In this document: positions 42,076-63,263 of the stretch, one piece after another
Numbering within the stretch: the stretch's first letter is position 1
How the letters are laid out: each line of letters opens with the position of its first letter
Assembly (NCBI RefSeq): GCF_000403845.2
Contig: NZ_KE159567.1
Span: 2,086,466 to 2,150,465, forward strand
Length of the DNA: 64,000 nucleotides
Origin: Eubacterium sp. 14-2
GTDB taxonomy: Bacteria; Bacillota; Clostridia; Lachnospirales; Lachnospiraceae
Direction: 5' to 3'
The notes under the pieces: generated by a model
Told to the model about the DNA's origin: nothing
Seen by the model: the letters and a program-made list of their open reading frames with translations, nothing else
The model's database searches: none
Program-made: the position numbers and the translations under genes

Positions 42076-42185
42076 AACAAAGCGGACAGGTCCGCAGGGG
42101 CTCCCTGAATCCCTCACTCATGAGGGACCTGGACGGTTTGCTGCGCCGAGTGCGGTCACGCAGTGACATTTTCTATTCGCACGAG
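42076..42185 (+). repeat. 110-bp structured repeat, copy 1
   Basis: This copy differs by one base from the copy at 42259-42368 and is related to 63151-63263. Stems seen in order are GCGGAC/GTCCGC, CCCTCA/TGAGGG, GTCAC/GTGAC and CGCAC/GTGCG, the last extending just past the end. No protein-coding logic is seen. Confidence 0.85.
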
Positions 42186-42200
42186 TGCGCATATTATTTT

Positions 42201-42259
42201 TCTCTTATAGGAAAGATACTTTCACGCGTTAGCGTGACAAATTTTTTTCCTATAAGAGA
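42201..42259. repeat. Type B palindrome, copy 1
   Basis: Outer arms TCTCTTATAGGAAA and TTTCCTATAAGAGA enclose a second stem CACGC/GCGTG with loop GTTA. The outer arms match the type A family, so type B looks like type A with a hairpin insert. It links the two 110-bp repeats, giving a 183-bp period. Confidence 0.85.
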
Positions 42260-42368
42260 ACAAAGCGGACAGGTCCGCAGGGGCTCCCTGAATCCCTCAC
42301 TCATGAGGGACCTGGACGGTTTGCTGCGCCGAGTGCGGTCACGCAGTAACATTTTCTATTCGCACGAG
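42259..42368 (+). repeat. 110-bp structured repeat, copy 2
   Basis: This copy is identical to copy 1 except for one G-to-A change in the third stem (GTGAC to GTAAC). Together with the type B palindrome it forms a recent 183-bp tandem duplication. Confidence 0.85.
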
Positions 42369-42420
42369 CGGATTGCGCAGCAATAAACATCGCCCCCGCG
42401 AGCTGCGCATCATCGTTTTT
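42369..42420. repeat. TGCGCAGC-armed segment beside type A palindrome
   Basis: TTGCGCAGCAATA and GAGCTGCGCATCAT form a stem TGCGCAGC/GCTGCGCA. The same 60-base arrangement precedes the palindrome at 55.3 kb (55323-55363). This shows that the type A unit at these two sites is larger than its 36-bp core. Confidence 0.7.
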
Positions 42421-42458
42421 TATTCTACAGGAAATCCGGAGGAATTTCCTGTAGAATA
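42421..42458. repeat. Type A palindrome, copy 3
   Basis: A 38-bp palindrome with arms TATTCTACAGGAAAT and ATTTCCTGTAGAATA around CCGGAGGA. The arm change TATAGG to TACAGG is matched on the other side. It follows the alpha-galactosidase terminator on the minus strand. Confidence 0.85.
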
Positions 42459-42459
42459 A

Positions 42460-42499
42460 AAACAGGGATACCGCACTCCCTTTTGCAGTATCCCTGTTT
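42460..42499 (-). terminator. Terminator of the raffinose operon
   Basis: The stem ACAGGGATAC/GTATCCCTGT (outer bases 42462-42498) is followed on the minus strand by TTTTATT. It lies about 20 bases past the alpha-galactosidase stop. Confidence 0.85.
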
Positions 42500-42515
42500 C
42501 ATATGCATTTCAAAC

Positions 42516-44729
42516 TTATTCCGTTTCTGCTCCTTCCAGACAAATATAAATCTGGCAGGAATCATAATTTTCCACCGGAACGGGCAGAAGAACTCCGCCG
42601 TTCATCAGTGCAGCCCCGGTAAAAGTCCCTGCAGGTTCATTGTTTTTCCACATGGAATAAACCCCTTTCGGGCGCAGTCCCCGGAATTTCACAGACTGGG
42701 CAGCCGGATTTCCGTGCAAATCGGTATAAACCACACCAAGATATGCTTCTTTTCCATCCTTATCCGCATATTCCCAGGCAGTGAAATCACGGTTTTCCAG
42801 GGGAGAGGTAATTCTGTGATAATCCCCAAACTGGAATAAGCGGTAACGCTTCTTAAATGTGCGTATCTGTTCTCTTGCCTCCGTCTTCTCATCCTCTGTC
42901 ATTTTACTTAAATCCAGCTCATATCCAAAGGTTCCCTGCATGGCGCAGATTCCCCTTGTCTGAAAAGGCGTTACCCTTCCATTCTGATGGTTCGGGCATA
43001 CAGACACATGAGCAGATACGGAAGACATGGGATAACCAAAAGACGTTCCGTACTGAATACTCAGACGTTCAATTGCGTCTGTATTGTCACTGCACCAGAT
43101 CTGAGGCGCATAATAGAGCATTCCGGCATCAAACCTGCCTCCGCCTCCGCTGCAGCCTTCCAGCAGCAAATCCGGATAGCGCTCCAGCATGGCCTCCATT
43201 ACTTCATAAAGGCCCAGTACATACCGATGACGCAGTTCTCCCTGCCGCTCTCTGGGCAGAAGTGCGCTGTAGGCCGCTGCCACAGAGCGGTTCATATCCC
43301 ATTTCACATACTGGATATTGGCAGAATCCAGTATGTCAAACAACCGTTCTTTAATATAATTTTTCACATCCTCACGACTCATATCCAAAACAAGCTGAGA
43401 TCTTCCCCGAACAGGCTTCCTGCCGGGAACCACCATGGCCCATTCCGGATGACTCCGGTACAGATCACTGTCTTCTGAAATCATTTCCGGTTCAAACCAT
43501 AAGCCGAACATCAGTCCCAGTTCATTGACTTTGTCCGCCAGTTCTTTCATGGAACAGCCCAGCTTGTCCTCATTCACATACCAGTCCCCAAGGCCTGAAT
43601 AATCGTCGTCCCGTTTTCCAAACCAGCCATCGTCCAGCACCAGCATATCCAGTTCCAGCTCTGCCGCCTCTTCAGCAATTTTCAGAATCTTTTCCGCGTT
43701 AAAATCAAAGTAAGTAGCTTCCCAGTTATTAACCAGAACGGGACGTCTTTTATCCTTCCAGTTACTCCGGATTAAATTTTTCTGAAAACCGTTATGGTAG
43801 CAATGGGACAGTTGAGACAGTCCCTTATTGCTGTAAGCCATGGCAATTTCCGGCGCTGTAAAACAGTCTCCTGGCTGCAGGCTCCAGGTAAATACGGAAT
43901 CATCAATGCCCATTACCAGTCTGGTCTGATGAAACTGATCCACTTCGGCATGCATATGGAATCCGCCGCTGTACAGCAGGGAAAATCCATAGCAGTCCCC
44001 CAGTTCTTCCGTGGTATTTTTTTCCGCAAGAATCACAAAGGGGTTATGCTGATGGCTGGAAGTCCCGCGGGTACTTCTCAGTTCCGTAACACCGTGAAAC
44101 AGAGGAACCCGCTCCATTTCCCGCTCTCCCGCATGACGTCCGTAAAAATGAATCAGATCCATGCCGCTGTGATCCATGTCCAGACAGGCAGACAGAACTT
44201 TTGACAATCGTATTTCCCGGTCTGTTCTGTTCTCCACCATTGCTGCTCTTGTAATAATATCGTGTTCTTCAAACACTCCATAATACAGATGCAGATAAAA
44301 TTCTTCCTGGCTGTCCTTTAAAATTATTTCCAGTGTGTCAACCGGCTCTTCCTCAGAAGCAAACATTGCCGGAAGGCCTTCCAGTCCATACTTCCCATGA
44401 AACGTCCGGTAACTGTCAAAAAACAGAAGGCAGTCCCTGACACCGGTTCCCAGATCCGCATACATACAGCTTATCCGGTAATCTCCGCTTCCCCGCACCG
44501 GAAATTCCTGAGGCAGAAAATCAAGAGAATAGGTTCTGTCCTCTCTGGCTTCATAAATGTTCCCGGAAAATCCACGGTCTGCCATGGATATCATATAGGA
44601 ATAATCTGTCTCGTCCGTCCTGCTCCCATAATAGGTGTGCAGAAGGACGCCCTTGCTGTCTGCCTTCATCTGATACGTGCTGTTTCTGGTCTGAAGGGTA
44701 AATACATTGTCTTTGATAATAATTGCCAT
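42516..44729 (-). CDS. GH36 alpha-galactosidase
   Basis: The 737-residue enzyme removes terminal alpha-galactose from raffinose, stachyose and melibiose. The nucleophile Asp478 is in VKWDMNRS and the acid/base Asp534 in CSGGGGRFDAG. A large N-terminal beta-supersandwich (1-330), the TIM barrel with WFGKRDDDYSGLGDW, and a C-terminal beta domain give the standard length. There is no signal peptide, so it acts in the cytoplasm after import. It is last in the raffinose operon. The ribosome site GAAAGG is unusually far (about 11 bases) from the ATG. Confidence 0.95.
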   Translation of the reverse strand: MAIIIKDNVFTLQTRNSTYQMKADSKGVLLHTYYGSRTDETDYSYMISMADRGFSGNIYEAREDRTYSLDFLPQEFPVRGSGDYRISCMYADLGTGVRDCLLFFDSYRTFHGKYGLEGLPAMFASEEEPVDTLEIILKDSQEEFYLHLYYGVFEEHDIITRAAMVENRTDREIRLSKVLSACLDMDHSGMDLIHFYGRHAGEREMERVPLFHGVTELRSTRGTSSHQHNPFVILAEKNTTEELGDCYGFSLLYSGGFHMHAEVDQFHQTRLVMGIDDSVFTWSLQPGDCFTAPEIAMAYSNKGLSQLSHCYHNGFQKNLIRSNWKDKRRPVLVNNWEATYFDFNAEKILKIAEEAAELELDMLVLDDGWFGKRDDDYSGLGDWYVNEDKLGCSMKELADKVNELGLMFGLWFEPEMISEDSDLYRSHPEWAMVVPGRKPVRGRSQLVLDMSREDVKNYIKERLFDILDSANIQYVKWDMNRSVAAAYSALLPRERQGELRHRYVLGLYEVMEAMLERYPDLLLEGCSGGGGRFDAGMLYYAPQIWCSDNTDAIERLSIQYGTSFGYPMSSVSAHVSVCPNHQNGRVTPFQTRGICAMQGTFGYELDLSKMTEDEKTEAREQIRTFKKRYRLFQFGDYHRITSPLENRDFTAWEYADKDGKEAYLGVVYTDLHGNPAAQSVKFRGLRPKGVYSMWKNNEPAGTFTGAALMNGGVLLPVPVENYDSCQIYICLEGAETE

Positions 44730-44817
44730 AAATTAACTTGCCTTTCTAATCGTAATAATGATAACGAATACACCGCAACCGGAAAATGGGATATGGATTG
44801 TCTGGGATACCGGAAAT

Positions 44818-46617
44818 TCACACAAGCCAGAGATATTCATAGGGACCTAACTGTACCCGGTTGTTATAAGATCTGACATATCTTCCGGTAATAAGGTCCT
44901 GCATTTCTCCGGGCAGACCAAACCAGTCAAATGCACTGGAATCCACCCACTGCTCCTGCTCTGAAAAGTTTGCAAGCACCAGCATTTTATCTGCCTTATG
45001 AAAACAGAATACTGCCGGATTTCCGGTTTTCACCGGAACTGCCCGATATTCGGAGCTGAATAATTCACTGGATTTGCGAATCTCTATCATATTTCGTATT
45101 TTCGTAAAAATCTGTCCCTGAACTGTGGCAAAATCCGTGCGTTTCTCTGCTGCTTCCCAGTCCATCACACCCCGGTGAAGCCAACGGGAATCTGCCGCAT
45201 GTTCCGGCACCTGCTTATAGCCCCAGTCGTTGAGCTGCCCGATTTCATCCCCGCTGTAAAGCAACGGAATTCCCGTATAGGAAATTACCATGGCATGGAG
45301 CAGGAGAATCCTTTTTACTGCAAGCTCTGTTTTGTACATGTGTTTCTCCCGCAGAGCCTGCTCTAACCCGCACATGGAAGCCAGTGTTCCGCTGTTTCTG
45401 GCATCCTGTGTCACCGGGTTATATTCATACAGTTCCCCTGTGGCAAAGCTGCCCGGATATCTCCCTTCCATAAACTGTATGATATACTGTTTATGGAGCT
45501 CCGGATCCAGCCCCAGATTCTTCAGAATCTCCTTTTCAAATCCCCATCCGATGTCATCATGACAGCGTACATAATTAATCCATGTACCGCTGTCCGGAAT
45601 CCCATAATCAATGGAAAGGGAACGTTCCATCAGCTGTACATCTCTGGTGGCCAGGGAATTCCAGAGCAATACCATGAAGGAGGCATTATACATTACGTTG
45701 CATTCCTTCATTTCCTGGTTTCCAAAATACTTCACAATCTCATAAGGCTCCACAATAGCCTCTCCCAGAAATACCACGCCGGGACATACCTGCTGTACAA
45801 TCTCATACATCATGCCCAGCAGTTTATGTACATTGGGGTGATTCATACATGGGGTTCCCGGTTCTTTCCACATATATGGTATCGCATCCAGACGGAAAAT
45901 GTCAACGCCTTTATTGGCAAGGGTAAGCATTACTTCCACAATTTTGTTAAACACCTGCGGATTTCTGTAATTCAAATCCCACTGGAATTCATAAAACCTG
46001 GTCATTACATACTTCTGAATATCAGGATACCAGGTGAAATTTCCAGGAGCCACTCCGGGAAAAATTTCCGTCATATATTTTTCATACTCTTTGGGAATGG
46101 TATCATCATCAAACATAAAATACATATCGTCATAATCATGATCTCCCTCCCTGTATTTCTGTACCCAGAGATGTTCTTTTGCCGTATGGTTCAGCACAAA
46201 ATCAATACAGGTGCGGATTCCTTTTGCCTTCAGGAGCTTCATTACCCGTTCCAGCTGCTTCATGGTTCCGAATTTATCGTCCACCATCAGGTAATCTGAT
46301 ACCGCATAACCTCCGTCATTGTTGCCTTCCCTGGATTTTAAAAGTGGCATGAAATGCACATAAGTAATCCCAAGTTCTGCAATATAGTCAATCCGTTTCT
46401 CGAATTCCTCCAGATTGTTGCTGAACCGGTCCACATAAAGCATCATGCCAACCATTTTTTCCGACTGATACCAGTCATTCCCGTTCCCGTCTGCCTTTTT
46501 CAGGGCAGACGGACGGGTTTTTGCGGCATGTTCCAGGATGGACATTAACTGTCCCCAGCGGTATTCGGTAATTTCATTTCTTCCATAAAGTTCGTAATAG
46601 CTGTTTTTTAAGTCCAT
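44818..46617 (-). CDS. GH13 amylosucrase-like enzyme
   Basis: The 599-residue GH13 protein matches the amylosucrase subfamily (GH13_4). MLYVDRFSNNLEEFEKRIDYI and LGITYVHFMPLLKSREGNNDG lie near residues 60-110, nucleophile Asp244 in DIFRLDAIP, acid/base Glu286 in FLGEAIVEP and Asp354 in RCHDDIGW. Amylosucrases cleave sucrose and transfer glucose to alpha-glucan; close relatives only hydrolyse sucrose. There is no signal peptide. It lies between the ABC permeases and alpha-galactosidase, so it probably handles the sucrose released from raffinose and provides fructose for the kinase. Polymerase versus hydrolase activity cannot be decided from sequence. Confidence 0.85.
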   Translation of the reverse strand: MDLKNSYYELYGRNEITEYRWGQLMSILEHAAKTRPSALKKADGNGNDWYQSEKMVGMMLYVDRFSNNLEEFEKRIDYIAELGITYVHFMPLLKSREGNNDGGYAVSDYLMVDDKFGTMKQLERVMKLLKAKGIRTCIDFVLNHTAKEHLWVQKYREGDHDYDDMYFMFDDDTIPKEYEKYMTEIFPGVAPGNFTWYPDIQKYVMTRFYEFQWDLNYRNPQVFNKIVEVMLTLANKGVDIFRLDAIPYMWKEPGTPCMNHPNVHKLLGMMYEIVQQVCPGVVFLGEAIVEPYEIVKYFGNQEMKECNVMYNASFMVLLWNSLATRDVQLMERSLSIDYGIPDSGTWINYVRCHDDIGWGFEKEILKNLGLDPELHKQYIIQFMEGRYPGSFATGELYEYNPVTQDARNSGTLASMCGLEQALREKHMYKTELAVKRILLLHAMVISYTGIPLLYSGDEIGQLNDWGYKQVPEHAADSRWLHRGVMDWEAAEKRTDFATVQGQIFTKIRNMIEIRKSSELFSSEYRAVPVKTGNPAVFCFHKADKMLVLANFSEQEQWVDSSAFDWFGLPGEMQDLITGRYVRSYNNRVQLGPYEYLWLV

Positions 46618-46641
46618 ACCGTATATTCCTTTATTCTGTTT

Positions 46642-47508
46642 TTATTTTACTGCACCGTTTACAACACCGTTGATAATCTGTTTCTGGCAAATGATATAGA
46701 AAACCAGAATCGGCAGCAATGCCAGCAGATAAGATGCAAATGCCAGGTTGTAGTTGGTTCCGAACTGTGACTGGAAATTCAGCTGTGCCAGCGGAAGGGT
46801 ATTGACATCGCTTCCTGACATGATAACCAGCGGAGTCATAACATCATTCCATGTGCTCATTGCAGTAAGCACTGCTACTGTTGCATGCATGGGCTTCATG
46901 TTCGGGAAAATAATTTTCCAGTAAGTCTGCCATATGCTCGCACCATCCACGCAGGCTGCTTCCTCCAGCGCCATGGGGATATTTTTCAGGTATCCGGAAT
47001 ACAGCATAATGTTCATGGGCATGAAGAATACCACATACAACACGATAACACCAAAACGGTTTGCAATCCCAAACTGAGAAGTCTGTTTTACCAGAGGCAT
47101 CATCAGCACTGCAAAAGGTACGAACATACCGCTTACAATGTAGAAGTAGGATACCTTAAACACTTTCAGTTTCGCCATTTTTCTTCCGATTACATAACCT
47201 GCCAGAGAATGCAGCAGGATACAGATAATAACTGTTACGCCGGTAAGCAGCAAACTGTTGCCCAGAGAACGCCAGAAATCTGTTACGCGCATTGCCTCTG
47301 TAAAATTGCTGAAACTCCAGCTTGAGGGGAATCCCAGGGCTCCTGCCACGTCATTGGTCATTTCCGAAGGTTTCTTAAAAGCAATGATAACTGTCATATA
47401 AAGAGGAAATAATATGGTAAGACAGCCAATTGCCAAAAGTATATTGATTATATTATTCACGGCCTTGCCGCCGACTGCTCCTTCGCTTCCTTTATCTTTT
47501 TTTCCCAT
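46642..47508 (-). CDS. Raffinose-type ABC permease (MsmG-like)
   Basis: The 288-residue CUT1 permease has six spans and EAA loop ALEEAACVDGASIWQTYWKI. The start codon overlaps the previous permease stop by one base (TAATG). It is the second of two permeases of the importer that probably brings in raffinose-family sugars or sucrose, judged by the attached enzymes. Confidence 0.9.
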   Translation of the reverse strand: MGKKDKGSEGAVGGKAVNNIINILLAIGCLTILFPLYMTVIIAFKKPSEMTNDVAGALGFPSSWSFSNFTEAMRVTDFWRSLGNSLLLTGVTVIICILLHSLAGYVIGRKMAKLKVFKVSYFYIVSGMFVPFAVLMMPLVKQTSQFGIANRFGVIVLYVVFFMPMNIMLYSGYLKNIPMALEEAACVDGASIWQTYWKIIFPNMKPMHATVAVLTAMSTWNDVMTPLVIMSGSDVNTLPLAQLNFQSQFGTNYNLAFASYLLALLPILVFYIICQKQIINGVVNGAVK

Positions 47509-48401
47509 TATAACTGCTCCTCCTTACCTCCTAAGAATCTCATCTGCAGGAACGAAATTACTACGATTACTATAAAGAATACAAATGCGTTCGCACTCTG
47601 GAAACCGAACTGTCCGCCGCTCATACCGTTGTTGTAAATCAGGTAGGAAATGGATTCTGTACTCTGAGACGGACCGCCCTTTGTCAAAGACATGATCTGG
47701 TCGAATACCATCAGTGCATTTTTCATACAGAGCACCAGGTTGATGCTGAAGAACGGAAGAATCAACGGGAAGGTAAGGCTCCAGAATTTTTTCCATCCGC
47801 TGACACCGTCAATCATTCCCGCTTCATACACTTCTGCCGGAACGGTCTGCAGTCCTGATATGTAAATAATCGTATTCATTGCTATTCCCTGCCATGCACC
47901 TACAATCACAATGGCAATCCATGCGGTTTTGGTACTTGCAAGCATACTGTTCTGAAGAAAACCGATTCCGGTTGCTTCTCCCACTGCCGGAAGGATGTAT
48001 GTAAATACAAAGCTGAAAATATAACCTACAACCAGTCCTCCCAATATATTCGGTACAAAATAAATTCCTCGTAACGTACTTTTTCCCCGTATTTCACGAT
48101 TTAATCCCAGAGCAAGGATTAAACTGATAATATTAACTGCAATGGTCATAACTACTGCATACTTAAACGTAAACAGATAGGATTTGCCCACACGCAGGTC
48201 TGTAAATAAATCTTTGAAGTTCCGAAGGCCTACCATGTCATAATCGCCATAGCCTTTGTAATTGGTAAGACCGTAATAAAAACCCTTTAATAATGGAAGG
48301 GTGTTGAACAGAAAGAACAGAATCAACACAGGAATCAGCATTCCAAGAAAAATCTTATCGTTTTTCGTCCACAATTTATCTCTCTTTCCTTCGTTTCCCA
48401 T
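47508..48401 (-). CDS. Raffinose-type ABC permease (MsmF-like)
   Basis: The 297-residue permease has six spans and an EAA loop in VYEAGMIDGVSGWKKFWSL. It lies three bases after the binding-protein gene. No ATPase is encoded in the locus; MsmX/MsmK-like shared ATPases are the usual solution in Firmicutes. Confidence 0.9.
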   Translation of the reverse strand: MGNEGKRDKLWTKNDKIFLGMLIPVLILFFLFNTLPLLKGFYYGLTNYKGYGDYDMVGLRNFKDLFTDLRVGKSYLFTFKYAVVMTIAVNIISLILALGLNREIRGKSTLRGIYFVPNILGGLVVGYIFSFVFTYILPAVGEATGIGFLQNSMLASTKTAWIAIVIVGAWQGIAMNTIIYISGLQTVPAEVYEAGMIDGVSGWKKFWSLTFPLILPFFSINLVLCMKNALMVFDQIMSLTKGGPSQSTESISYLIYNNGMSGGQFGFQSANAFVFFIVIVVISFLQMRFLGGKEEQL

Positions 48402-48404
48402 GGT

Positions 48405-49700
48405 CTATTCCCCCTTTTCCTGATATTTTTGCACTTTACTGATAATATCTTTATTATATCTTACCCATTCTTTGTCAAATCTGGTAAGGAAGGTGTCCAG
48501 TGCATTGCTGCTGTTATCGAACAGATAAGTCTGAATCATGGCGTCTACCGCCATCTCACTGGGATAATGGTGGTCCTGATAGTCCGCAACGATTCCATTT
48601 TCTATGTACTCTTTCATGCCGTCCAGTTCCGGAGCAATCTCAAAATCACCTTTCTTACACGGTACTGCACTCTGGTCGTTCAGGTAATCCTGAATATTTT
48701 CGTCTTCCAACAGAAATCTTAATACTTCATAGGCTTCTTCTTTATGTTCACAGTCCTCCATCACGCAGAACATCAGGTCGTTACCGGAATTCAGGATGTT
48801 TTCTTCTGCGTTGCTGCTTGCCGGGAATACAAAAGAGTCAATGTTCATATCCGGATTTACGGATTTAATCTGGGGGATTGCATAATTACCAATTACATAC
48901 ATGGCTGACTGTCCTCTTGCAAAAGCGGTACATGCATCGTTGTAACTGTATGCCACCGGATCGGACTGTCCGTATTTCAGAAGTTCTTTATCTTTCACTG
49001 CAATTTCTTCATATGCTTCTGAAAATGTGGCGTTACCGCTGTTTACCTGATATGCAATGTCTGTGCTGCACAGGTTTACTGCAATGGCATTCCATGGTGC
49101 AAGACAGGTCCAGGTGTCCTTATATCCGAAATAAAGCGGCTGGATTCCTTCTGCCTGAATCGTTTCACAGAGCTGGTTGAACTCTTCCCAGGTGGTTGGA
49201 ATCTGCCATCCGTGTTCTTCAAACATATCTCTGTTATAGAGAACACCTGCCGCGTTCGCCATGTAAGGCACTGCATAAACGCCTTCCTGAGGAACATATT
49301 CCAGATCTTTATTTGTAGTAAGATAATTCTCCTTGATGTCTGAAAGACCGTCAAAATCAGAAATGTCCATCAGCATTTTTGCATCCAGGAAGTTGGAGTA
49401 GTTGATATCTCCGCCAATTCCGATAATATCAGGATTGTTTTCCCGGATAAATCTTGTCTTCAGAATAACCATGGCATCGTTCGGCGAATCAATCACCAGT
49501 TTAATGTTGTCGTGAGTCGCATTAAATTTCTCTTCCAGTGCTTCAAATACGTCCACTGCTTCCGGTTTGTAGTGGACCAGCTCGATCACAACCTTTCCGT
49601 CTGCATCATCCTTTTTGCCGCCACATCCGCCAAGCAAAAGCCCTGAGACAATTGTCACAGCAAGGAATAATGCCATTACTTTTTTCTTTTTCTTTGCCAT
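48405..49700 (-). CDS. Raffinose/sucrose-binding lipoprotein (MsmE-like)
   Basis: The 431-residue solute-binding protein has a poly-Lys start (MAKKKKKVMALFL) and lipobox LLGGC with Cys26. A family 1 binding fold follows (VIELVHYKPEAVDVFEALEEKF; GQSAMYVIGNYAIPQIK). It is first in the transport operon and feeds the two following permeases. GAGGAGG precedes the ATG. Ligand inferred from alpha-galactosidase and amylosucrase downstream. Confidence 0.88.
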   Translation of the reverse strand: MAKKKKKVMALFLAVTIVSGLLLGGCGGKKDDADGKVVIELVHYKPEAVDVFEALEEKFNATHDNIKLVIDSPNDAMVILKTRFIRENNPDIIGIGGDINYSNFLDAKMLMDISDFDGLSDIKENYLTTNKDLEYVPQEGVYAVPYMANAAGVLYNRDMFEEHGWQIPTTWEEFNQLCETIQAEGIQPLYFGYKDTWTCLAPWNAIAVNLCSTDIAYQVNSGNATFSEAYEEIAVKDKELLKYGQSDPVAYSYNDACTAFARGQSAMYVIGNYAIPQIKSVNPDMNIDSFVFPASSNAEENILNSGNDLMFCVMEDCEHKEEAYEVLRFLLEDENIQDYLNDQSAVPCKKGDFEIAPELDGMKEYIENGIVADYQDHHYPSEMAVDAMIQTYLFDNSSNALDTFLTRFDKEWVRYNKDIISKVQKYQEKGE

Positions 49701-49793
49701 TTTTTACCTCCTCGTCTTTTTAAACAAATTTTCTGTTGGAACCTTGCTCTTTGCATTGCTAATTTTATTTAGTTATGTTTTGTTTTGCAACAT

Positions 49794-49822
49794 ATTATGT
49801 GCATAACCAATTTTTTATACAA
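49794..49822 (-). promoter_or_regulatory. Candidate promoter of the raffinose operon
   Basis: TTGTAT (49817-49822) and CATAAT (49794-49799) lie 17 bases apart on the minus strand, about 95 bases before the binding-protein start. An A/T-rich interrupted palindrome ATGTT...AACAT follows (about 49776-49794) and might be an operator. Confidence 0.45.
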
Positions 49823-49853
49823 ATTTAATAAAGTCTTTATGTATATTTTATAC

Positions 49854-49888
49854 AAAAAAGGAATCCTTTATAAAAGGATTCCTTTTTC
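49854..49888 (-). terminator. Terminator of the second lacI-family gene
   Basis: The stem AAGGAATCCTTT/AAAGGATTCCTT is followed by T6 on the minus strand, 22 bases after the regulator stop. The plus strand also has a T-tract, so it may work both ways. Confidence 0.85.
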
Positions 49889-49910
49889 ATACAGGCCCTT
49901 CGGCCCTGAT

Positions 49911-51974: not shown

Positions 51975-51978
51975 AATT

Positions 51979-55234: not shown

Positions 55235-55322
55235 ATTCACCCCTCCTGTCTCGTCCCGCATATATACTGCCGGATATCTGCCTTATTATCTTAACACATA
55301 TTTTTCTCTATTACTATCTGTT

Positions 55323-55406: not shown

Positions 55407-55434
55407 AAAAAAGAATCCTGCTCTGCAGGATTCT
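55407..55434 (-). terminator. Terminator after the dapF-like gene
   Basis: The stem AGAATCCTGC/GCAGGATTCT at 55412-55434 is followed on the minus strand by T6. It lies about 130 bases past the dapF-like stop. Confidence 0.78.
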
Positions 55435-55567
55435 CCGCCTGGGCCGGGCCTCTTTGCAACAAATTCACCCGCCGCATAACCACATTTTTCAATAAAAAAC
55501 AGACTTTTACTATCCTCTCATTTCTGATGAAAAGGAAATCTTCATCTCAGCAGATTTCAGCTGTCCC

Positions 55568-56413: not shown

Positions 56414-56529
56414 ACATTCCACCCTTTCTTTCCTGTTCAGCATATGCCGGAACGTGAGAATTCATACCCTTCCTTTTTTATAAACTTATTTTATCTCTTT
56501 CTTTTCGCATATAACAGTAAATATATTGC

Positions 56530-56558
56530 TTGAAATACTGCAAAAAGTGCTGTATAAT
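56530..56558 (+). promoter_or_regulatory. Promoter of the AraC-family gene
   Basis: TTGAAA (56530-56535) and TATAAT (56553-56558) lie 17 bases apart. Transcription would begin near 56565, directly before the tandem repeats. Confidence 0.85.
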
Positions 56559-56570
56559 CTGTCATGAGGA

Positions 56571-56791
56571 GGGGCCCGCTTGCGGGAGGAGCCCTGATGA
56601 CACTGGCTTGAGGTGGGGCCCGCTTGCGGGAGGAGCCCTGATGACACTGGCTTGAGGTGGGGCCCGCTTGCGGGAAGAGCCCTGATGACCCTGGCTTGAG
56701 GTGGGGCCCGCTTGCGGGAGGAGCCCTGATGACACTGGCTTGAGGTGGGGCCCGCTATGCGGGAGGAGCACGGATGACACTGGCTTGAGGA
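56571..56791 (+). repeat. Five tandem 44-bp repeats in the AraC-gene leader
   Basis: Units start at 56571, 56615, 56659, 56703 and 56747. Each contains GGGGCCCGC..GCGGG (hairpin CCCG/CGGG) and a ribosome-site-like GGGAGGAG. ATG ACA CTG GCT TGA follows seven bases later (ACC in unit 3). The stop of the fifth frame overlaps the GAGGAG ribosome site of the AraC gene. The repeats are contiguous, so this is not a CRISPR. Confidence 0.9.
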
Positions 56792-56800
56792 GAACGCAAT

Positions 56801-57718
56801 ATGAATGCTGTATCACAGAAAAAAAAAGAAAAACAGACCGGATATCTTCATCAGAATTTCCGTCTGTTTCATTTAAAAGAAAAAAAGAATCAGGAATTTG
56901 AATTCCATTACCATGATTTTAACAAAATTATCATATTTTTATCCGGGAATGTTACCTACTTTGTAGAGGGAAAGGCTTATGACCTTAAGCCCTGGGATAT
57001 TCTTCTAATTAACAACCACGACATTCACAAGCCGGTTATTGACCCCGGCACCGCATACGAACGTGTTGTGATCTGGCTGCAGCCGGACTTTATCCGGGAG
57101 CAGAAAGACCGTTCCTGTGACCTGTCCCGCTGCTTTACTACAGCAACTGAAAAAAGATTTAATCTGATTCGGCTGAATCATCGTCTGCAGGCAGACATGC
57201 AGACGATCCTGCAGCAGCTTGAATCCTCTCTCACCAGTACGGAATTTGGTCATGAAGCTCTGAGTCAGGCATATTTTTTGCAGTTTATGGTATATCTGAA
57301 CCGTATCTTTCTGCCGGAAATCTCCCAGCCAGACTTTTCCGCTTCCAGGTATGACAGGCAGATTGCTGACATTCTGACTTACATCAGTCTGCATCTGGGC
57401 GAAGATCTGTCCAACGAAACACTGTCACGTCAATTTTATGTGAGCAAATATTATCTGATGCACAAATTTAAAGAACATACCGGATATACCCTTCACGCCT
57501 ATGTTCAGCAGAAACGTCTGTTACATGCCAAAGACCTGATTCAGGAGGGCACACCCGTTTTAAAGGCTTCTTCCCTGTGCGGATTTTCCGATTACTCCAC
57601 ATTTTTACGGGCATTCCGCAAATTTTACGGGTTTTCTCCAAAAGCATTCCTGACCGCCCGGAAGAAAGACTCAGGATTCAGCGGCACACAGACAGCCACA
57701 ACGCACATGCCTTACTGA
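56801..57718 (+). CDS. AraC-family transcriptional regulator with cupin domain
   Basis: The 305-residue regulator has an N-terminal cupin sensor (FHYHDFNKIIIFLSGNVTYFV, then LKPWDILLINNHDIHKP) and a C-terminal double HTH. ADILTYISLHLGEDLS begins the HTH region near residue 190, and the second HTH includes SLCGFSDYSTFLRAFRKFYG. These proteins usually bind a sugar or metabolite and activate a nearby operon; no target is evident beside it. GAGGAG lies eight bases before the ATG, just after five tandem repeats in the leader. Confidence 0.92.
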   Translation: MNAVSQKKKEKQTGYLHQNFRLFHLKEKKNQEFEFHYHDFNKIIIFLSGNVTYFVEGKAYDLKPWDILLINNHDIHKPVIDPGTAYERVVIWLQPDFIREQKDRSCDLSRCFTTATEKRFNLIRLNHRLQADMQTILQQLESSLTSTEFGHEALSQAYFLQFMVYLNRIFLPEISQPDFSASRYDRQIADILTYISLHLGEDLSNETLSRQFYVSKYYLMHKFKEHTGYTLHAYVQQKRLLHAKDLIQEGTPVLKASSLCGFSDYSTFLRAFRKFYGFSPKAFLTARKKDSGFSGTQTATTHMPY

Positions 57719-57858
57719 CGGATATAAATACCCTGCTGCTCAATGAACTCTTCCAGCTCATTCTGAGCGTCCTGGGGCCAGGTTTCGCTCAGGGAAACGT
57801 TTTTACAGTCTTTCTCATTATCGCGGGCAGTTTCCGTTCCATCCTTTAACTGCTTCAT
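57712..57858 (-). CDS. Small protein of 48 residues coupled to the Glu-rich protein
   Basis: An ATG at 57858 shares ATGA with the stop of the preceding Glu-rich protein gene and opens 48 codons (MKQLKDGTETARD...EEFIEQQGIYIRQ). It is acidic, with one Cys, and shows no recognised motif. The overlap implies translation coupled to the upstream gene. Its last seven bases overlap the convergent AraC gene end. It is easily missed because of its length. Confidence 0.6.
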   Translation of the reverse strand: MKQLKDGTETARDNEKDCKNVSLSETWPQDAQNELEEFIEQQGIYIRQ

Positions 57859-58559
57859 AATTCTGCCTCTCCCTTCTCTGCCGGCTCCGGTTCTTCACCA
57901 AAGCCTCCCCCTGCCGGCTCCTTTAGTTCCTCCGGCTCCAAAACCGGAGCACTCATATTTTCCTGTTCCTCTACCGGAAGTTCTTCCTGATACATCTCAG
58001 CCGGCAGTTCCTGCGGTTCCCCTTCTACCGGAATATGCTCCGCCTGCCCCATTTCTCCAGCTGATAAAGTTTCTCCCATATCTGCTTCCAGAGCTGAAAT
58101 ATCAGGTTCCTCAATGTCTGTTTCTGTTCCGGGGACATCCCCCTGATCTGTTTCCGGTACAGATACCTCCACCGGCTCACTTTTTTGTGCCAGCGTAATA
58201 CTGCTGGCAGAAATAATATCCTGCAGCTGCCTGCTTTTTTCACTTAAAATCGCCTCTACTCTTTCCTGTGTTATATCATCCATGGGATGTTTTCCGGTGG
58301 CATCCATTCCTGTTGCCAGCTGCTCCTCCAGCATTTTCTGTTCTGCCAGAAGCCGCTCTATTTCACCGGCATTTTTCTTATCCTCATCTTCTCTCAGTCG
58401 TTTTGCAAGCTGTTCTGCCGCTTCCCTGTCCTGCTGTCTGGCTTCTTCCTGCTTCCTGCGTTCCAGTTCCTCTTTGGAAATATACACGATATTCCTGCGT
58501 TTTACAATACTTCTGGCAATTCTCTCCCGTTCATTTCTTTTATCAATGGCATCTTTCAT
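57855..58559 (-). CDS. Glu/Pro-rich coiled-coil protein of unknown function
   Basis: The 234-residue protein has a basic-acidic coiled coil at residues ~1-85 (RNERERIARSIVKRR, then Glu/Arg-rich helix). A short conserved-looking stretch HPMDDITQERVEAIL and a disordered C-terminal half dominated by Glu, Pro and Met (from about 125) follow. It has no signal peptide or membrane span. AGGAGACAGATAACG precedes the ATG. It follows a structured leader and is coupled to a 48-residue gene. I do not recognise the family. Confidence 0.7.
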   Translation of the reverse strand: MKDAIDKRNERERIARSIVKRRNIVYISKEELERRKQEEARQQDREAAEQLAKRLREDEDKKNAGEIERLLAEQKMLEEQLATGMDATGKHPMDDITQERVEAILSEKSRQLQDIISASSITLAQKSEPVEVSVPETDQGDVPGTETDIEEPDISALEADMGETLSAGEMGQAEHIPVEGEPQELPAEMYQEELPVEEQENMSAPVLEPEELKEPAGGGFGEEPEPAEKGEAEL

Positions 58560-58564
58560 CGTTA

Positions 58565-58748
58565 TCTGTCTCCTAACAACAAATTCTTCGGTTATCTTTC
58601 AACCTCGCTGTGCCAAGCTCGTGAGCCTCTGAGCTTCTCTCGCTCACGGGCTTTCACCCTGTCCGAACCTGTAAAAAGACAACTGTACTCATGCCGGCAT
58701 GACACATCTGCTTTTGCAGGTTCAGACACTGCTCATTGCTCTCCTGTA
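58565..58748 (-). ncRNA. Candidate structured leader RNA
   Basis: On the minus strand an 11-bp stem GTCTGAACCTG/CAGGTTCGGAC (plus-strand 58717-58727 with 58661-58671) encloses the 14-bp palindrome TCATGCCGGCATGA (58689-58702). A second stem CGTGAGC/GCTCACG (58620-58648) and a small GGTT/AACC hairpin follow. A sigma-A-like promoter lies just upstream and the Glu-rich protein gene just downstream. It matches no riboswitch class that I can name. Confidence 0.5.
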
Positions 58749-58749
58749 C

Positions 58750-58777
58750 ATTATACCATGAAAATTTCATGAATAAA
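58750..58777 (-). promoter_or_regulatory. Promoter of the structured leader and Glu-rich protein gene
   Basis: TTTATT (58772-58777) and TATAAT (58750-58755) lie 16 bases apart on the minus strand. The -35 overlaps the -35 of the divergent sporulation promoter of sigG. Confidence 0.6.
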
Positions 58778-58800
58778 AGTAGCAAATTAAGTACATTCTT
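58771..58800 (+). promoter_or_regulatory. Sigma-G/F-type promoter of sigG
   Basis: GAATA (58771-58775), an 18-base spacer and CATTCTT (58794-58800) match the Bacillus sigma-G form (GHATR-18-CATNMTA) except for the last base. It lies 32 bases before sigG, consistent with autoregulation. Confidence 0.7.
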
Positions 58801-58832
58801 TTAATACATCAAAACTTTCCGGAGGTAACATC

Positions 58833-59636
58833 ATGGCTGCATATAAAGTAGAAATCTGTGGAGTCAACACTGCAAAACTCCCCGTATTAAAAGAGGAAGA
58901 AAAGAGCGATTTATTTTCCCGCATCAAGGCGGGGGATATGGAAGCCCGCGAGGCTTATATCAAGGGTAATCTCCGTCTGGTTTTAAGTGTAATCAAGCGT
59001 TTTTCCAACAGTAATGAAAACGTGGACGACCTGTTCCAGATCGGATGCATCGGGCTGATCAAATCCATTGACAATTTCAATCCGGATATCGGTGTAAAAT
59101 TTTCCACCTATGCAGTTCCCATGATTATCGGTGAAATCAGGCGTTACCTGCGGGATAACAATTCCATCCGGGTAAGCCGCTCCCTGCGGGATACCGCGTA
59201 CAAAGCAATCCATGCCAGAGAGCTGCTGTCCAAAGAGCTTTCCCGGGAACCTACCATTGAAGACATTGCAAAAGAAATTGACATTCCAAAAGAGGATATC
59301 GTATTTGCCCTTGACGCCATTCAGTGTCCTGTCAGCCTCTATGACCCGGTTTATACCGACGGAGGAGACACCCTGTATGTGATGGATCAGATCAGTGACA
59401 AAAAAAATAAAGAAGAAACCTGGGTGGAAGAACTTTCCTTAAGTGACGCCATGAAACGGTTGAATGAGCGGGAAAATTATATCATCAGGCTGCGATTCTT
59501 TGAAGGCAAAACACAAATGGAAGTGGCAGAAGAAATCCACATCTCCCAGGCCCAGGTCAGCAGACTGGAAAAATCTGCATTAAAAAATATGAAAAACTAT
59601 CTCTCTGTCACTCCCACTTATCACAGAGAGAATTAA
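58833..59636 (+). CDS. sigG: Forespore sigma factor SigG
   Basis: The 267-residue sporulation sigma factor drives late forespore transcription. The N-terminal VEICGVNTAKLPVLKEEEK is characteristic of SigG. Region 2 contains ENVDDLFQIGCIGLIKSIDNF and FSTYAVPMIIGEIRRYLRD; region 4 ends with ISQAQVSRLEKSALKNM. Its -35/-10 pair fits self-recognition. CCGGAGG precedes the ATG. It is on the strand opposite to sigE and spoIIGA and converges on the metallohydrolase gene, overlapping it by 29 bases; in Bacillus and many Clostridia it is collinear with sigE. Confidence 0.95.
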   Translation: MAAYKVEICGVNTAKLPVLKEEEKSDLFSRIKAGDMEAREAYIKGNLRLVLSVIKRFSNSNENVDDLFQIGCIGLIKSIDNFNPDIGVKFSTYAVPMIIGEIRRYLRDNNSIRVSRSLRDTAYKAIHARELLSKELSREPTIEDIAKEIDIPKEDIVFALDAIQCPVSLYDPVYTDGGDTLYVMDQISDKKNKEETWVEELSLSDAMKRLNERENYIIRLRFFEGKTQMEVAEEIHISQAQVSRLEKSALKNMKNYLSVTPTYHREN

Positions 59637-61206
59637 TCTGGTCTGCAAACTTTCCAAGCTCTTTGTTTGGCCGTCCTTCTGATTTGCGGATAACTGCCAG
59701 CAGACGTTCTCCGGCCGCCAGAAGCCTTGCAAAAACATTGGAAACTCCATGGGCCTCTTTTGCTTGCCGTACTTTCTTTTCCCGGCTTCCTTCTGCCAGA
59801 CAGACATTTTTTTCCAGATCATAAATGTCTCCGCTGTAGGGAGCTGTGGCCGTAAGCCCTGTTTCCTTTGTAATCAGAGAAGCAAAGGTGTCGCACACAC
59901 TGTCTTCCCCATGTACCACAAACACCCGTCTGGGCGTTTCCCCAAAGGCCTTCACCCATTCCAGCAGATGCTGCTGGTCTGCGTGTCCGCTGATTCCGGC
60001 CAGATTCTGGATTTTTGCATGAACCTCAATCGTTTCACCAAACAGCTTTACCTCTTTTGTTCCGTTCAGCAGCATATTTCCAAGGGTGCCCGGTACCTGA
60101 TAACCTACGAAAAGAATCGTGGAATCTTTTCTCCAGAGATTATGTTTCAGATGATGGCGAATCCGTCCTGCCTCGCACATACCGGAAGCAGAAATAATTA
60201 CAATGGGCTTTTCAATAAAATTAATCATTTTGGATTCATCACTGGTAACAGCCACCTTAAGTCCCGGAAAACTAATGGGGTTCTTCCCTTTGCGCACCAG
60301 TTCCAGGGCCTCCTCATCAAAACATTCTTTCACATTTTTATGAAAAATGCTGGTGGCCTCCACTGCCAGAGGGCTGTCTATGTACACCTCAAAATCCTCA
60401 AATTCCGGCAGAAGGCTCTCCGTTTTGATTTTCCGCAGAAAATACAGCATTTCCTGTGTTCTGCCCACGGAAAAAGCCGGAATCACCACATTCCCTCCTC
60501 TGGTAAATGCATCTTTGCACACCTGTGCAAGTTCTTTTGCATAATCCGGCGGATCCTGATGGAGACGGTCTCCATAGGTGGATTCCACAACCACATAATC
60601 GGCCTCCCGAATATATTGGGGATTGCGGATTAAGGGCTTGTTGCCGTGTCCCACATCACCGGAAAATACAAGTTTTACCTGTTTTCCCTCTTCTGTTCCC
60701 CAGATTTCAATGCTGGATGAACCGAGAAGATGGCCCGCGTCCACAAATCGAATGGTAATTTCCGGACAAAGGGTAATTATTTCCCCATATTCACATGGAA
60801 TAAAATGCTCCAGTACCCCCACTGCGTCATCCATGGTATACATGGGCTCCACCAGAGGCCGTCCTGCACGCTTTGCCTTCCGGTTTTTCCATTCCGCCTC
60901 AAACATCTGAATGTGAGCCGAGTCTTTCAGCATAATATTGCACAGTTCCACGGTTGCTCTGGTGCCATAGACTTTCCCCCGAAATCCATGGCTGTACAGA
61001 AGCGGCAGCAGACCGGAATGATCAATATGGGCATGGGTAATCAGCACATAGTCAATCTCGGCCGTATTTACCGGTATCTCCTGATTTTCATATAAATCTG
61101 CTCCCTGCTCCATTCCGCAGTCCACCAGCAGGTTGACATCTCCCATCTGCACATAATGGCAGCTTCCTGTCACCTCATGGGCAGCCCCCAAAAATTCAAG
61201 TTTCAC
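59608..61206 (-). CDS. MBL-fold beta-CASP metallohydrolase (RNase-like)
   Basis: The 532-residue protein has metallo-beta-lactamase metal motifs THAHIDHSG near residue 57 and ESTYGDR (near 180), the beta-CASP domain and the RMMBL end SGHADQ (near 375). A C-terminal extension of about 110 residues carries no clear domain. Relatives are CPSF-like exo/endoribonucleases. A GTG start at 61206 follows AAAGGAG with nine-base spacing and places the conserved KLEFLGAAHEVTGS at the N-terminus. It lies 50 bases after sigE and converges with sigG. Confidence 0.85.
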   Translation of the reverse strand: MKLEFLGAAHEVTGSCHYVQMGDVNLLVDCGMEQGADLYENQEIPVNTAEIDYVLITHAHIDHSGLLPLLYSHGFRGKVYGTRATVELCNIMLKDSAHIQMFEAEWKNRKAKRAGRPLVEPMYTMDDAVGVLEHFIPCEYGEIITLCPEITIRFVDAGHLLGSSSIEIWGTEEGKQVKLVFSGDVGHGNKPLIRNPQYIREADYVVVESTYGDRLHQDPPDYAKELAQVCKDAFTRGGNVVIPAFSVGRTQEMLYFLRKIKTESLLPEFEDFEVYIDSPLAVEATSIFHKNVKECFDEEALELVRKGKNPISFPGLKVAVTSDESKMINFIEKPIVIISASGMCEAGRIRHHLKHNLWRKDSTILFVGYQVPGTLGNMLLNGTKEVKLFGETIEVHAKIQNLAGISGHADQQHLLEWVKAFGETPRRVFVVHGEDSVCDTFASLITKETGLTATAPYSGDIYDLEKNVCLAEGSREKKVRQAKEAHGVSNVFARLLAAGERLLAVIRKSEGRPNKELGKFADQINSLCDKWE

Positions 61207-61256
61207 TTTACCATCTCCTTTGTATAAATTTGTATTCATGATAAATTTTACCACAT

Positions 61257-61997
61257 TTATTCAAATTTTACGATTTCTTTTTTCAGACGTTTCATAATCT
61301 TTTTTTCCAGACGTGAAATATAGGACTGGGAAATACCAAGAAGGTCTGCAACCTCTTTCTGGGTCATTTCCTCTCCCTGGGCGTGGTTCAGCCCAAACCG
61401 CAGTTCCACAATAGCCCGTTCCCGTTCAGAAAGTTTTGCCACTGCCTTTTTCAGCAGATTTTTCTCCACCTCTGTCTCAATATCACGATAAATGATATCC
61501 TCGTCTGTTCCCAGAATATCCGACAAAAGAAGTTCGTTTCCGTCCCAGTCCACATTCAGAGGCTCGTCAATGGATACCTCCATTCTGGTCTTGTTATTCC
61601 GCCGCAGATACATCAGAATTTCGTTTTCGATACAACGGGAAGCATAGGTGGCCAGTTTGATATTTTTGGTGGGATTAAAGGTGTTGATAGCTTTAATCAG
61701 GCCGATTGTTCCGATGGAAATCAAATCCTCCACTCCGATGCCTGTATTGTCAAATTTCTTTGCTATGTACACCACCAGCCGCAGATTATGCTCAATGAGA
61801 ATGCTTCTAGCCCGTTCCGATTCCTCTCCGTCCAGCATCTGAATACAGCGGTTTTCCTCCCGCGCTTCCAGCGGCGGCGGCAGAATTTCCGCTCCTCCGA
61901 TATAGTGGACATCCCCTTTTTTCATCATCAGCAGACTGCGCAGGCTGGGTATCAGCTTTAGATGAAAATGCCGCGGTATTGCAATTTTTATGTACAT
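61257..61997 (-). CDS. sigE: Mother-cell sigma factor SigE (pro-form)
   Basis: The 246-residue early mother-cell sigma factor carries an N-terminal pro-sequence before [13 protein letters not shown], where SpoIIGA cuts. Region 2 shows [19 protein letters not shown] and [18 protein letters not shown]; region 4 ends in [17 protein letters not shown]. It follows spoIIGA by 12 bases with AAAGGAGG. Standard length for the family. Confidence 0.96.
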
Positions 61998-62009
61998 AAT
62001 TTTCCTCCT

Positions 62010-62792
62010 TTAATTTTCCATGGATTTTCCATTTAATATCACATCACATCTGTCATCCTGAAACAGCTTTTCATCTGCAAGACCGAATACGGGCTTTTTC
62101 AGGTACAGAGGACATCCTTCTCTGACAATGTACATTCCCTCCAGAGTCACCGCTTCCAGAAGTCCGGATTCCTGTCCCAGTGAATGATAGGGAATCAGTC
62201 TCGTGAGAAGCTGTTCTTTCTGTATCTGACTCTGCAGGATTTCCCGTTTTATAATATGTACCGGCCGATTCCCCAGAGGATCTGTCAGCAGATTTCCCGT
62301 ATCGTAAAAACCCTTTACAGAAAGTTTTCCTTCTCCGGTTACCAGAAGAAGGTCATAAAGAGTCTCTTTTTCTCCTTTTACATGTCTCAGCGCCCTCCCG
62401 GCTGCCTCAAGAAACAGCAGAGCCCCCGCCAGGCAGACCAGAAAATATCCGCTTCCTTTTCTGCCGACCATACTAAAGGACAATACGCCTCCCAGCAGAA
62501 CATATGCCACATAAGTAATGGCCCACTGACATAAAAATTCCTTTTTCCTGCTTCGGTAACACAGATACACCATCAGGGGATTTACCAGAAAATGGACGCA
62601 AATCCGGTACAGGGTATAGTTTTCCAGCCCCAGAAAAAAAAGCATGGATCCGGCTGTCCCTGTAAAACTCCCCAGCAGCAGTCTTCCCGGACGAACCGGC
62701 TGACGCATCAGTTTACCTGCCAGAACCAGGGCCAGGCTGTCCATAAGAAAATTTGTCAGAAACCAGACGTCTGCATACAGTTCATATTCCAC
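62010..62792 (-). CDS. spoIIGA: Sigma-E processing protease SpoIIGA
   Basis: The 260-residue membrane-embedded aspartic-type protease cleaves pro-sigma-E. Five hydrophobic segments fill residues 1-130 (starting VWFLTNFLMDSLALVL). The protease domain has the catalytic Asp in FYDTGNLLTDPLG near residue 165. GAGGGAGCGG precedes the ATG. It forms an operon with sigE behind a spoIIG-like promoter. Confidence 0.93.
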   Translation of the reverse strand: MEYELYADVWFLTNFLMDSLALVLAGKLMRQPVRPGRLLLGSFTGTAGSMLFFLGLENYTLYRICVHFLVNPLMVYLCYRSRKKEFLCQWAITYVAYVLLGGVLSFSMVGRKGSGYFLVCLAGALLFLEAAGRALRHVKGEKETLYDLLLVTGEGKLSVKGFYDTGNLLTDPLGNRPVHIIKREILQSQIQKEQLLTRLIPYHSLGQESGLLEAVTLEGMYIVREGCPLYLKKPVFGLADEKLFQDDRCDVILNGKSMEN

Positions 62793-62841
62793 CCGCTCCC
62801 TCCTTGTCTGATATTTCCCCAGGCTGAGCCTGATACCCTAC

Positions 62842-62874
62842 AGTATAAGATGAAACCGGAGATTTTTTTGTCAA
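62842..62874 (-). promoter_or_regulatory. spoIIG-type promoter
   Basis: On the minus strand TTGACA (62869-62874) is separated by 21 bases from TATACT (62842-62847). Spo0A-activated spoIIG of Bacillus has a similarly long spacer (22). TGTCAAA on the plus strand at 62869-62875 resembles a 0A box (TGNCGAA) with one mismatch. Confidence 0.5.
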
Positions 62875-62978
62875 ACCGTTGTCCTCTTCCGGAAAAATTC
62901 TTTTACAGAATCTGACAGAAAAATCAGAATTTATGATATAAAACTGTACTTACTGCAAAACAGCAGAAACGTTCCATG

Positions 62979-63006
62979 CAAAAACCCCCGCAGCAAAATG
63001 CGGGGG
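62979..63006 (-). terminator. Terminator of the acetyl-CoA-synthetase-like gene
   Basis: The stem CCCCCGCA/TGCGGGGG is followed on the minus strand by TTTTTGC. It lies beyond the repeat elements and is the last signal after the stop at 63264. Confidence 0.85.
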
Positions 63007-63021
63007 TTTGTTTATCCTATT

Positions 63022-63060
63022 GGAAAGACTCTGTTACGCTAACGCGTGAAGCGGGGAATC
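63022..63060. repeat. Degenerate type B half-element
   Basis: TATTGGAAAGACTCTGTTACGCTAACGCGTG-like sequence (split here for length) parallels the start of the intact element at 63081, about 65 bp away. Only one outer arm is left, but the inner hairpin CACGCGTTAGCGT is present. Confidence 0.6.
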
Positions 63061-63080
63061 CTGCAAAGCAGAATTTTTTT

Positions 63081-63136
63081 ATCTTATAGGAAAGACCTTG
63101 TCACGCTAAAGTGTGAAAGTATCTTTTCTATAAGAT
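63081..63136. repeat. Type B palindrome, copy 2
   Basis: Arms ATCTTATAGGAAAG and CTTTTCTATAAGAT enclose an inner stem CACGCTAAAGTGTG. It is related to the 42201-42259 element in both arms and insert. Confidence 0.82.
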
Positions 63137-63150
63137 AAAAATAATATGCG

Positions 63151-63263
63151 CACTCGCACAAGAGGTAACATATTGCTTCGCAATTGTGCTCGGCGCACAA
63201 AGTGTCCAGGCCCCTCATGAGTGAGGCGTCAGGGGAGCTGAAGTGGGCCTGCCCACTTTGTTT
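63151..63263 (-). repeat. Diverged structured repeat abutting the acs-like stop
   Basis: Read on the minus strand it aligns with the 42-kb 110-bp repeat: AACAAAG, a GTGGGC/GCCCAC stem, CTCCCC, CCTCACTCATGAGG, CCTGGAC and GCGCCGAG, then an ATTGC/GCAAT stem. Two stems differ from the 42-kb copies by compensatory changes. It begins at the base next to the TAG of the gene at 63264. Confidence 0.82.

Follow-up and report, generated by a model that had tools for sequence, protein, structure and literature searches.

Interspersed mosaic palindromic elements adjoining terminator-like hairpins in Eubacterium sp. 14-2 and its relatives

Few conserved non-coding signals between bacterial genes are commoner than terminators. 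In the palindromic REP repeats, the core contains a GTAG or GTGG tetranucleotide. Considered here is a family of structured repeats of Eubacterium sp. 14-2, met in a window of 64,000 nucleotides (positions 2,086,466 to 2,150,465 of contig NZ_KE159567.1). The window holds three copies, placed as in an earlier note made from its letters: at 42076-42192 and from 42259 onward on the + strand and at 63146-63262 on the - strand. Each unit is a mosaic, about 130-200 bp long, of an end hairpin A (or, in sister units, D1 or D2), an asymmetric hairpin B, and a palindrome C, and units can stack in tandem.

The elements recall several described systems, compared here as far as the available parts of the cited papers go. 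BOX of Streptococcus pneumoniae is built of modules, boxA-boxB-boxC, with terminal inverted repeats that look like those of an insertion sequence (PMC3049150). The likeness, one of description and not of sequence, lies in modular interspersed repeats with a variable middle and extensive secondary structure, in slow turnover between strains, and in the insertion of repeats into one another; the difference is that neither such terminal inverted repeats nor a partner were found here and that the site is the T-tract of a terminator (PMC3049150). SPRITE, from the same species, shares the look of an intrinsic terminator and the enrichment at the 3' ends of genes, but it consists of an 18-bp duplex and a T-rich tract, whereas the units here have three or more modules (PMC3049150). 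REPIN and BIME repeats are likewise non-autonomous extragenic palindromes in tens to hundreds of copies, with single-stranded DNA (ssDNA) hairpins possible; unlike those served by a RAYT, the present elements have mixed modules and live in a genome without a Y1/RAYT gene (PMC8049555). Group IIC introns, too, insert just behind intrinsic terminators, recognized as ssDNA hairpins (PMC3240598), but no intron domains appeared in Rfam scans of our loci, and Eubacterium sp. 14-2 has no reverse transcriptase gene.

By behavior, then, the family would seem closest to BOX, SPRITE, and REPINs, and might be filed among interspersed mosaic palindromic elements. The mobilizers that define BOX, REPIN, and group IIC elements are not found here. 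No description of the family was found in the literature searched, most subscription journals lying outside the search, and a screen of human microbiomes for palindromic structured RNAs lacks the word Lachnospiraceae in its main text, so far as available (PMC8040213).

Copy number, insertion site, and turnover

The three window copies belong to a large repeat family. In the genome of Eubacterium sp. 14-2 (G000; 3.99 Mb in 4 contigs), blastn listed at least 58 rows, of which 12 echo the palindrome on the opposite strand, and a covariance model built from 24 copies of the same genome (R1, whose match counts are lower bounds) found at least 59 matches with E no higher than 0.001. The sister unit D2, which has the layout of B and C common to A-type units and a different end hairpin, accounts for at least 60 rows, that is, 41 places (two covering C only) plus 19 reverse-strand echoes. 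With strict filters, and counting among the matches listed in genus-wide searches, R1 has matches in 30 of 61 genomes and 6 of 33 genera: in 25 of 29 genomes of the genus (Eubacterium sp. 14-2 included; G001, G007, G011, and G020 have none), in 5 of the 8 family members outside the genus, all five from different genera, and in 0 of 24 genomes from other families of the order. A 22-letter pattern run against named species genomes met 17 stretches in four assemblies, three called "Lachnospiraceae bacterium" and one an uncultured Eubacterium sp. The earlier note had proposed such a model search of the genome and its relatives; the copies are clearly not confined to those it had seen. At 32 of 38 loci of the genome (our own loci, below) the elements lie outside called open reading frames (ORFs).

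Units sit mostly at the T-tract of a terminator-like hairpin and in fixed orientation. If adjacency is taken to mean a hairpin of -8 kcal/mol or better starting within 8 nt of the right end, a structural proxy for an intrinsic terminator, then the right end adjoins a hairpin at 28 of 36 sites, whereas among 305 control A-runs taken from these loci 100 have such a neighbor (Fisher p 2.5e-7). The 36 sites comprise 34 of the 38 own loci (L027, L030, L037, and L046, with no clear right end, were left out) and the two sites of the window. D2 units replicate the result at 14 of 19 sites; of the original 20, L218 lacks a parsable end, and L223, read at a wrong, later place, was counted as a failure. 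Read on the opposite strand, the order is gene, hairpin, T-tract, element, and the right-hand gene is directed at the element in 35 of 38 own loci and 16 of 20 D2 loci. The 63-kb copy departs from this orientation: it lies between the stop codon and the two-sided terminator-like hairpin of the same gene. On a larger scale, 48 of 49 matches on the single 4.21-Mb chromosome of the relative G028 form two strand blocks; the strand changes at 0.78-0.94 Mb and again at 3.63-3.65 Mb, and dnaA lies at 3.51 Mb. The one exception overlaps an opposite-strand match. On contig C2 of G000, 19 of 21 matches are directed toward dnaA, at 1.42 Mb.

Occupied and empty sites can be compared directly. The earlier note had suggested looking for empty sites, and the 42-kb site proved to be one in G018 and G028, which read GCCTG AAAAAA CAGGG (..GCCTG AAAAAACAGGG..) where Eubacterium sp. 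14-2 has about 400 bp between GCCTG and AAAAACAGGG. The empty site retains the host hairpin and the A6 run. The junction falls inside that run, where at most 2 A's could be duplicated. Flanks of 31 of the 38 own loci were searched in G028, giving 26 rows, 24 of them strong, from which 25 pairs of sites were compared and 19 judged; in the other 6, one flank only could be aligned. Eight of the 19 slots have no full unit in G028 (L011, L021, L024, L033, L039, and L043, together with L019 and L029, which have remnants). At ten others G028 carries a different unit or a smaller number of units (L009, L010, L020, L022, L023, L026, L028, L031, L036, and L015, where the G028 unit has part of A in common with ours). 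One, L013, has the same unit, with an extra D1 unit in our genome. At 18 of 19 comparable slots, therefore, the unit is lacking or is replaced by another or by fewer: the elements turn over between species.

Anatomy and pairing of the modules

The changes that distinguish copies tend to come in pairs. The earlier note had read compensated changes between 42 and 63 kb in stem 1 of module A (GCGGAC/GTCCGC and GTGGGC/GCCCAC) and in stem 3, which belongs to module B (GTCAC/GTGAC and ATTGC/GCAAT), and had concluded that structure is kept; both readings hold, and the conclusion extends to the family. In an alignment of 24 of 26 cut copies from G000 (23 distinct), 94.2% of cells are paired, and 44 cells have changed on both sides, compared with 12.8 in shuffles (0 of 500 shuffles); these changes affect 12 pairs, against 6.8 in shuffles (0/500), while further pair types are no more numerous than in shuffles (21 versus 21.5). 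A second set came from a model search from 54 loci, none from our genome, whose 60 matches were reduced by 12 (duplicates, near-repeats, and length variants) to 48 copies and aligned by MAFFT without use of structure. Here 94.4% of cells are paired, a figure that drops to 29.0-44.5% in slid controls; 149 cells have changed on both sides, compared with 47.2 (0/500), pairs with change number 12 versus 10.0 (39/500), and pair types 26 versus 32.0 (500/500). Thus of the two measures of covariation rated most reliable, the own copies satisfy one and the copies from other genomes neither. A paucity of pair types is to be expected if wobble pairs are avoided or if subtypes are few. The co-change is strong, yet it is based on few alternative states, and since the two subtypes of A (GCGGAC and GTGGGC) are common by descent, the changed cells are not independent events. 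Further copies do not show stems decaying without compensation. Contrary to the note's impression that loops and linkers are better conserved than stems, identity across the family is 91.2% and 86.3% in paired columns and 84.4% and 81.6% in unpaired ones.

Module A can fold in two ways. Its minimum-energy fold is a long helix absent from the earlier note, P1 (CAAAGCG..AGGTCC with GGACCT..CGGTTTG; CAAAGCGgacAGGTCC / GGACCTggaCGGTTTG), which encloses stem 2, is followed by B, and competes with stem 1; on the sense strand as well, the full module favors the branched, long-range fold over stem 1. Stem 1 and P1 are mutually exclusive, because columns 8 and 16 each have a local partner (19 and 11) and a distant one (61 and 53) and can pair with only one of them at a time, but both covary, stem 1 behaving much like P1. 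Triple 11-16-53 is Watson-Crick in both folds in 63 of 72 rows and triple 8-19-61 in 58 of 72; among the exceptions, 12 keep the local pair only, in 8 only the distant pair is perfect, and one each breaks both, wobbles in both, or has a gap. Column pair 14-55, which belongs to P1 only, is G-C in 50 of the 72 rows and A-T in 19.

Does the structure act as RNA or as DNA? A strand that acts as RNA should tolerate G-U pairs but not A-C. Counted in 70 distinct copies and in every helix apart from column pair 7-62, G-T occurs in 36 cells and A-C in 42, and single helices are uneven (G-T versus A-C is 8 to 1 in the outer stem of B and 5 to 17 in stem 2). These counts show no RNA-type strand bias; on them, pairing is strand-symmetric. 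In palindrome C, moreover, the two arms agree in register and in the scored base across the loop in 51 of the 60 copies from own loci, a test that covered C arms of the listed types. Strand-symmetric pairing and matching arm types are what is expected of DNA palindromes. A scan of the window with Rfam 15 found nothing above the gathering score except one tRNA (26972-27043, - strand; RF00005, 64 bits), and a scan of eight further loci found above that score only a tRNA, in one locus; at E up to 5 there were 17 weak matches, all far below gathering, with a lowest E of 0.1. An RNA family of known type is thereby ruled out. With G-T as rare as A-C and without a match in Rfam, an RNA mechanism is not favored; of the two possibilities the earlier note had offered, RNA or DNA hairpins recognized by a transposase-like protein, the DNA hairpins fit better, and a search of three enzyme families (below) did not find the mover.

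Followed along the strand of the targeted gene, units of types A, D1, and D2 close with a terminator-like hairpin. In both 42-kb units and in the 63-kb unit it is stem 1, together with its T-rich tail, that was flagged as terminator-like; D1 and D2 close with GAATCC- and GAATGC-hairpins adjoining T-runs. Terminator-like sites of all kinds number 7 and 5 in the 42-kb and 63-kb regions, where 0.8 and 0.5 are expected. From these sequence features it is plausible that the units serve as back-up terminators. Palindrome C was considered as an ordinary bidirectional terminator and set aside, because its T-runs come before it and its A-runs after it, each on the wrong side. C does contain, upstream in both the 42-kb and the 63-kb units, a promoter-like TTGTCA-16-TATCTT; the short form of C, by eye, has none.

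At 42 kb the whole inserted array, absent from G018 and G028, runs from 42061 to 42457 (+ strand) and consists of a remnant of a C arm followed by two units. Module A of unit 1 (42076..42141, +) comprises P1 and stem 2, with the competing local stem 1 at 42082-42095, terminator-like on the - strand. Its module B (42144..42192, +) is a hairpin of GCGC/GCGC, GTGCG/CGCAC, and GTCAC/GTGAC with a 10-nt one-sided loop, and its C is of the long form (42197..42263, inverted repeat I1). Unit 2 begins with module A at 42259..42324 (+), continues with B and an extra D2-type B hairpin (GAGCGGATTGCGCAGCAAT..CCCGCGAGCTGCGCATC; together 42327..42410, +), itself a D2 match (G000:C1:2128826-2128927), and closes with the short form of C (42417..42462, inverted repeat I2). 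What the earlier note had called a 183-bp tandem duplication does have a spacing of 183 bp, but the repeat proper is 123 nt at 97% identity, and unit 2 has its own C and extra hairpin; because the units differ, the pair does not demonstrate the recent mobility that the note had seen in it. The host hairpin (42460..42499, inverted repeat I3) was flagged as terminator-like on the - strand and sits behind the - strand ORF 42516-44729; its T-tract marks where the array is inserted. A longer array is found in G028 (L154, C1:186762-187466), where four A-B units follow one another at about 196-bp spacing, two with identical scores; this array could reveal expansion or contraction.

At 63 kb, module A (63197..63262, -), of the GTGGGC/GCCCAC type, starts right next to the stop codon that closes the - strand ORF 63264-63944. 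It is followed by module B (63146..63194, -), of the CACAA/TTGTG and ATTGC/GCAAT type, by a long C (63068..63149), seen both as inverted repeat I1 and as a fold, and by what looks by eye like a degenerate further unit, half a C with a D1-like hairpin (63011..63067, -). The host terminator-like hairpin adjoining the array (62982..63009) has an A-run on one side and a T-run on the other.

The layout of B is constant across A-, D1-, and D2-type units: an outer stem, a one-sided loop of 10-11 nt, and an inner stem, the stem letters being, by eye, unrelated. In L044 (G000:C3:18249-18366), read on the opposite strand, that loop is AGGAGGAAGATG, which resembles a ribosome site and start codon; as a general feature this was rejected, other copies being, by eye, merely purine-rich there. 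Two loci, L026 and L038 (about 2998-3084), have a short module A consisting of one long, nearly perfect hairpin without a branch, possibly an ancestral or collapsed form. Two D2-type units 18 kb apart, L214 and L216 (G000:C2:1383965 and 1366095), both have a rare C arm, TACTTGTATAGG / CCTATACAAG.

The search for a mover and the competing explanations

Y1 transposases (PF01797) have no match in G000, G009, G012, G002, G018, or G022, which hold 32-60 copies of the element, and reverse transcriptases (PF00078, RVT_1) none in G000, G002, G005, G010, or G017; G002, with 38 copies and 92% complete, thus has neither. IS110 (PF02371) has five matches in G000, one of its ORFs lying about 280 bp from the D2 unit L216, but none in G002 (38 copies), G006 (18), G010 (22; 63% complete), or G017 (20; 82% complete). 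Its presence does not track the copies, and IS110 was dismissed as the mover. Element letters are absent from the flanks of 10 Y1, 10 reverse transcriptase, and 10 IS110 loci that were fetched. No pair of modules around an ORF, as an autonomous long version would have, was noticed in the fetched loci, a systematic search not having been made. The ends of the element, AACAAAG.. and ..GATAAAAAA, are by eye not inverted repeats. Target-primed copying with 5' truncation was rejected as well, as L039, L040, and L045 read, by eye, as internal deletions of hairpins and not as truncated ends. Probably, then, the mover does not belong to Y1, reverse transcriptases, or IS110, the three families searched, or it is no longer present.

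The reading we consider probable, if only by a little, is that these are non-autonomous mosaic elements, akin to BOX and REPIN, that insert as DNA hairpins at the T-tracts of terminators with the help of a mover in trans. Passage of the replication fork through a terminator might expose the element as single-stranded hairpins, in which form it would spread; an enzyme acting in trans would join it beside the host hairpin; and the unit's own end hairpin might then serve both as a reserve terminator and as a place where a further unit could land. Several observations weigh against this. No clear target duplication is seen at the 42-kb junction, within its A6 run, and gain and loss are not separable at single sites. 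Eight of 36 sites have no strong hairpin nearby, a third of control A-runs do have one, and at some sites (L011, 63 kb) the neighboring hairpin is part of another unit. At 6 of 38 own loci the element is overlapped by a mechanical ORF. The left-hand gene, too, mostly runs the same way (29 of 36 own and 14 of 20 D2 loci), so that most of the bias in orientation is that of the genes, and the orientation of genes could also explain the replication-related strand blocks. No mobilizing gene emerged among Y1, reverse transcriptase, and IS110, other transposase families lying outside the survey. Finally, the two exclusive folds kept in A also fit regulation by RNA.

That last point leads to a different account, in our estimation rather unlikely, by which the element is a mobile RNA on the strand of the preceding gene, with A a switch between a terminator (stem 1 and its T-rich tail) and an antiterminator (P1), and B a domain that senses or binds protein. 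Such a switch would explain why a stem that is terminator-like on that strand excludes P1, why the triples satisfy both folds while a pair proper to P1 covaries, and perhaps why C has a promoter-like site upstream. Against it, neither strand prefers G-U, Rfam gives no match, the left-hand genes lie at greatly varying distances, and the two subtypes of A turn many apparent changes into a single shared event; as for promoter-like sites, the two regions have 1 and 3, one of each in C, where 0.7 and 0.8 are expected, and short C forms appear to do without. The compensated stems might instead be a by-product of replication and not selected for structure at all. Template switching within quasi-palindromes perfects imperfect inverted repeats in one step, which accords with the equal rarity of G-T and A-C intermediates, the few alternative pair types, the change of C arms as whole blocks in register, and stems that are no less conserved than loops. 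This seems distinctly unlikely, however, since correction alone cannot make whole units multiply and change slots, and B keeps its layout (by eye) despite unrelated letters in its stems. Least probable, and very much so, are REPIN-type elements copied by a RAYT (Y1) or derivatives of terminator-homing group IIC introns copied by reverse transcriptase. High-copy extragenic palindromes are what the former would produce, and group IIC introns likewise sit behind terminators (PMC3240598), but Rfam found no group II intron family. A resident RAYT or a resident reverse transcriptase copying the elements in the manner of a SINE is largely refuted, the genome having no gene for either; an enzyme of the past, or one borne on a plasmid, is possible.

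One may also entertain a bolder form of the preferred reading, that of insertion at terminators through DNA hairpins: a new kind of mobile element, for which any intrinsic terminator is the landing signal, which hops as a lagging-strand hairpin without Y1 or reverse transcriptase, whose own terminator becomes the next site, and whose A-type units are mobile RNA switches, bistable between terminator and antiterminator and kept so by three-way covariation. We regard this as unlikely.

Structured elements that have terminators as safe harbors and multiply to dozens of copies without RAYT or reverse transcriptase would point to a hitherto unrecognized mobilizing system in a major family of gut bacteria, and the repeat family would supply many sites, naturally occupied in one genome and empty in another, with which to test mobilization. 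If A is a true terminator switch, the elements would spread ready-made regulation between genes.

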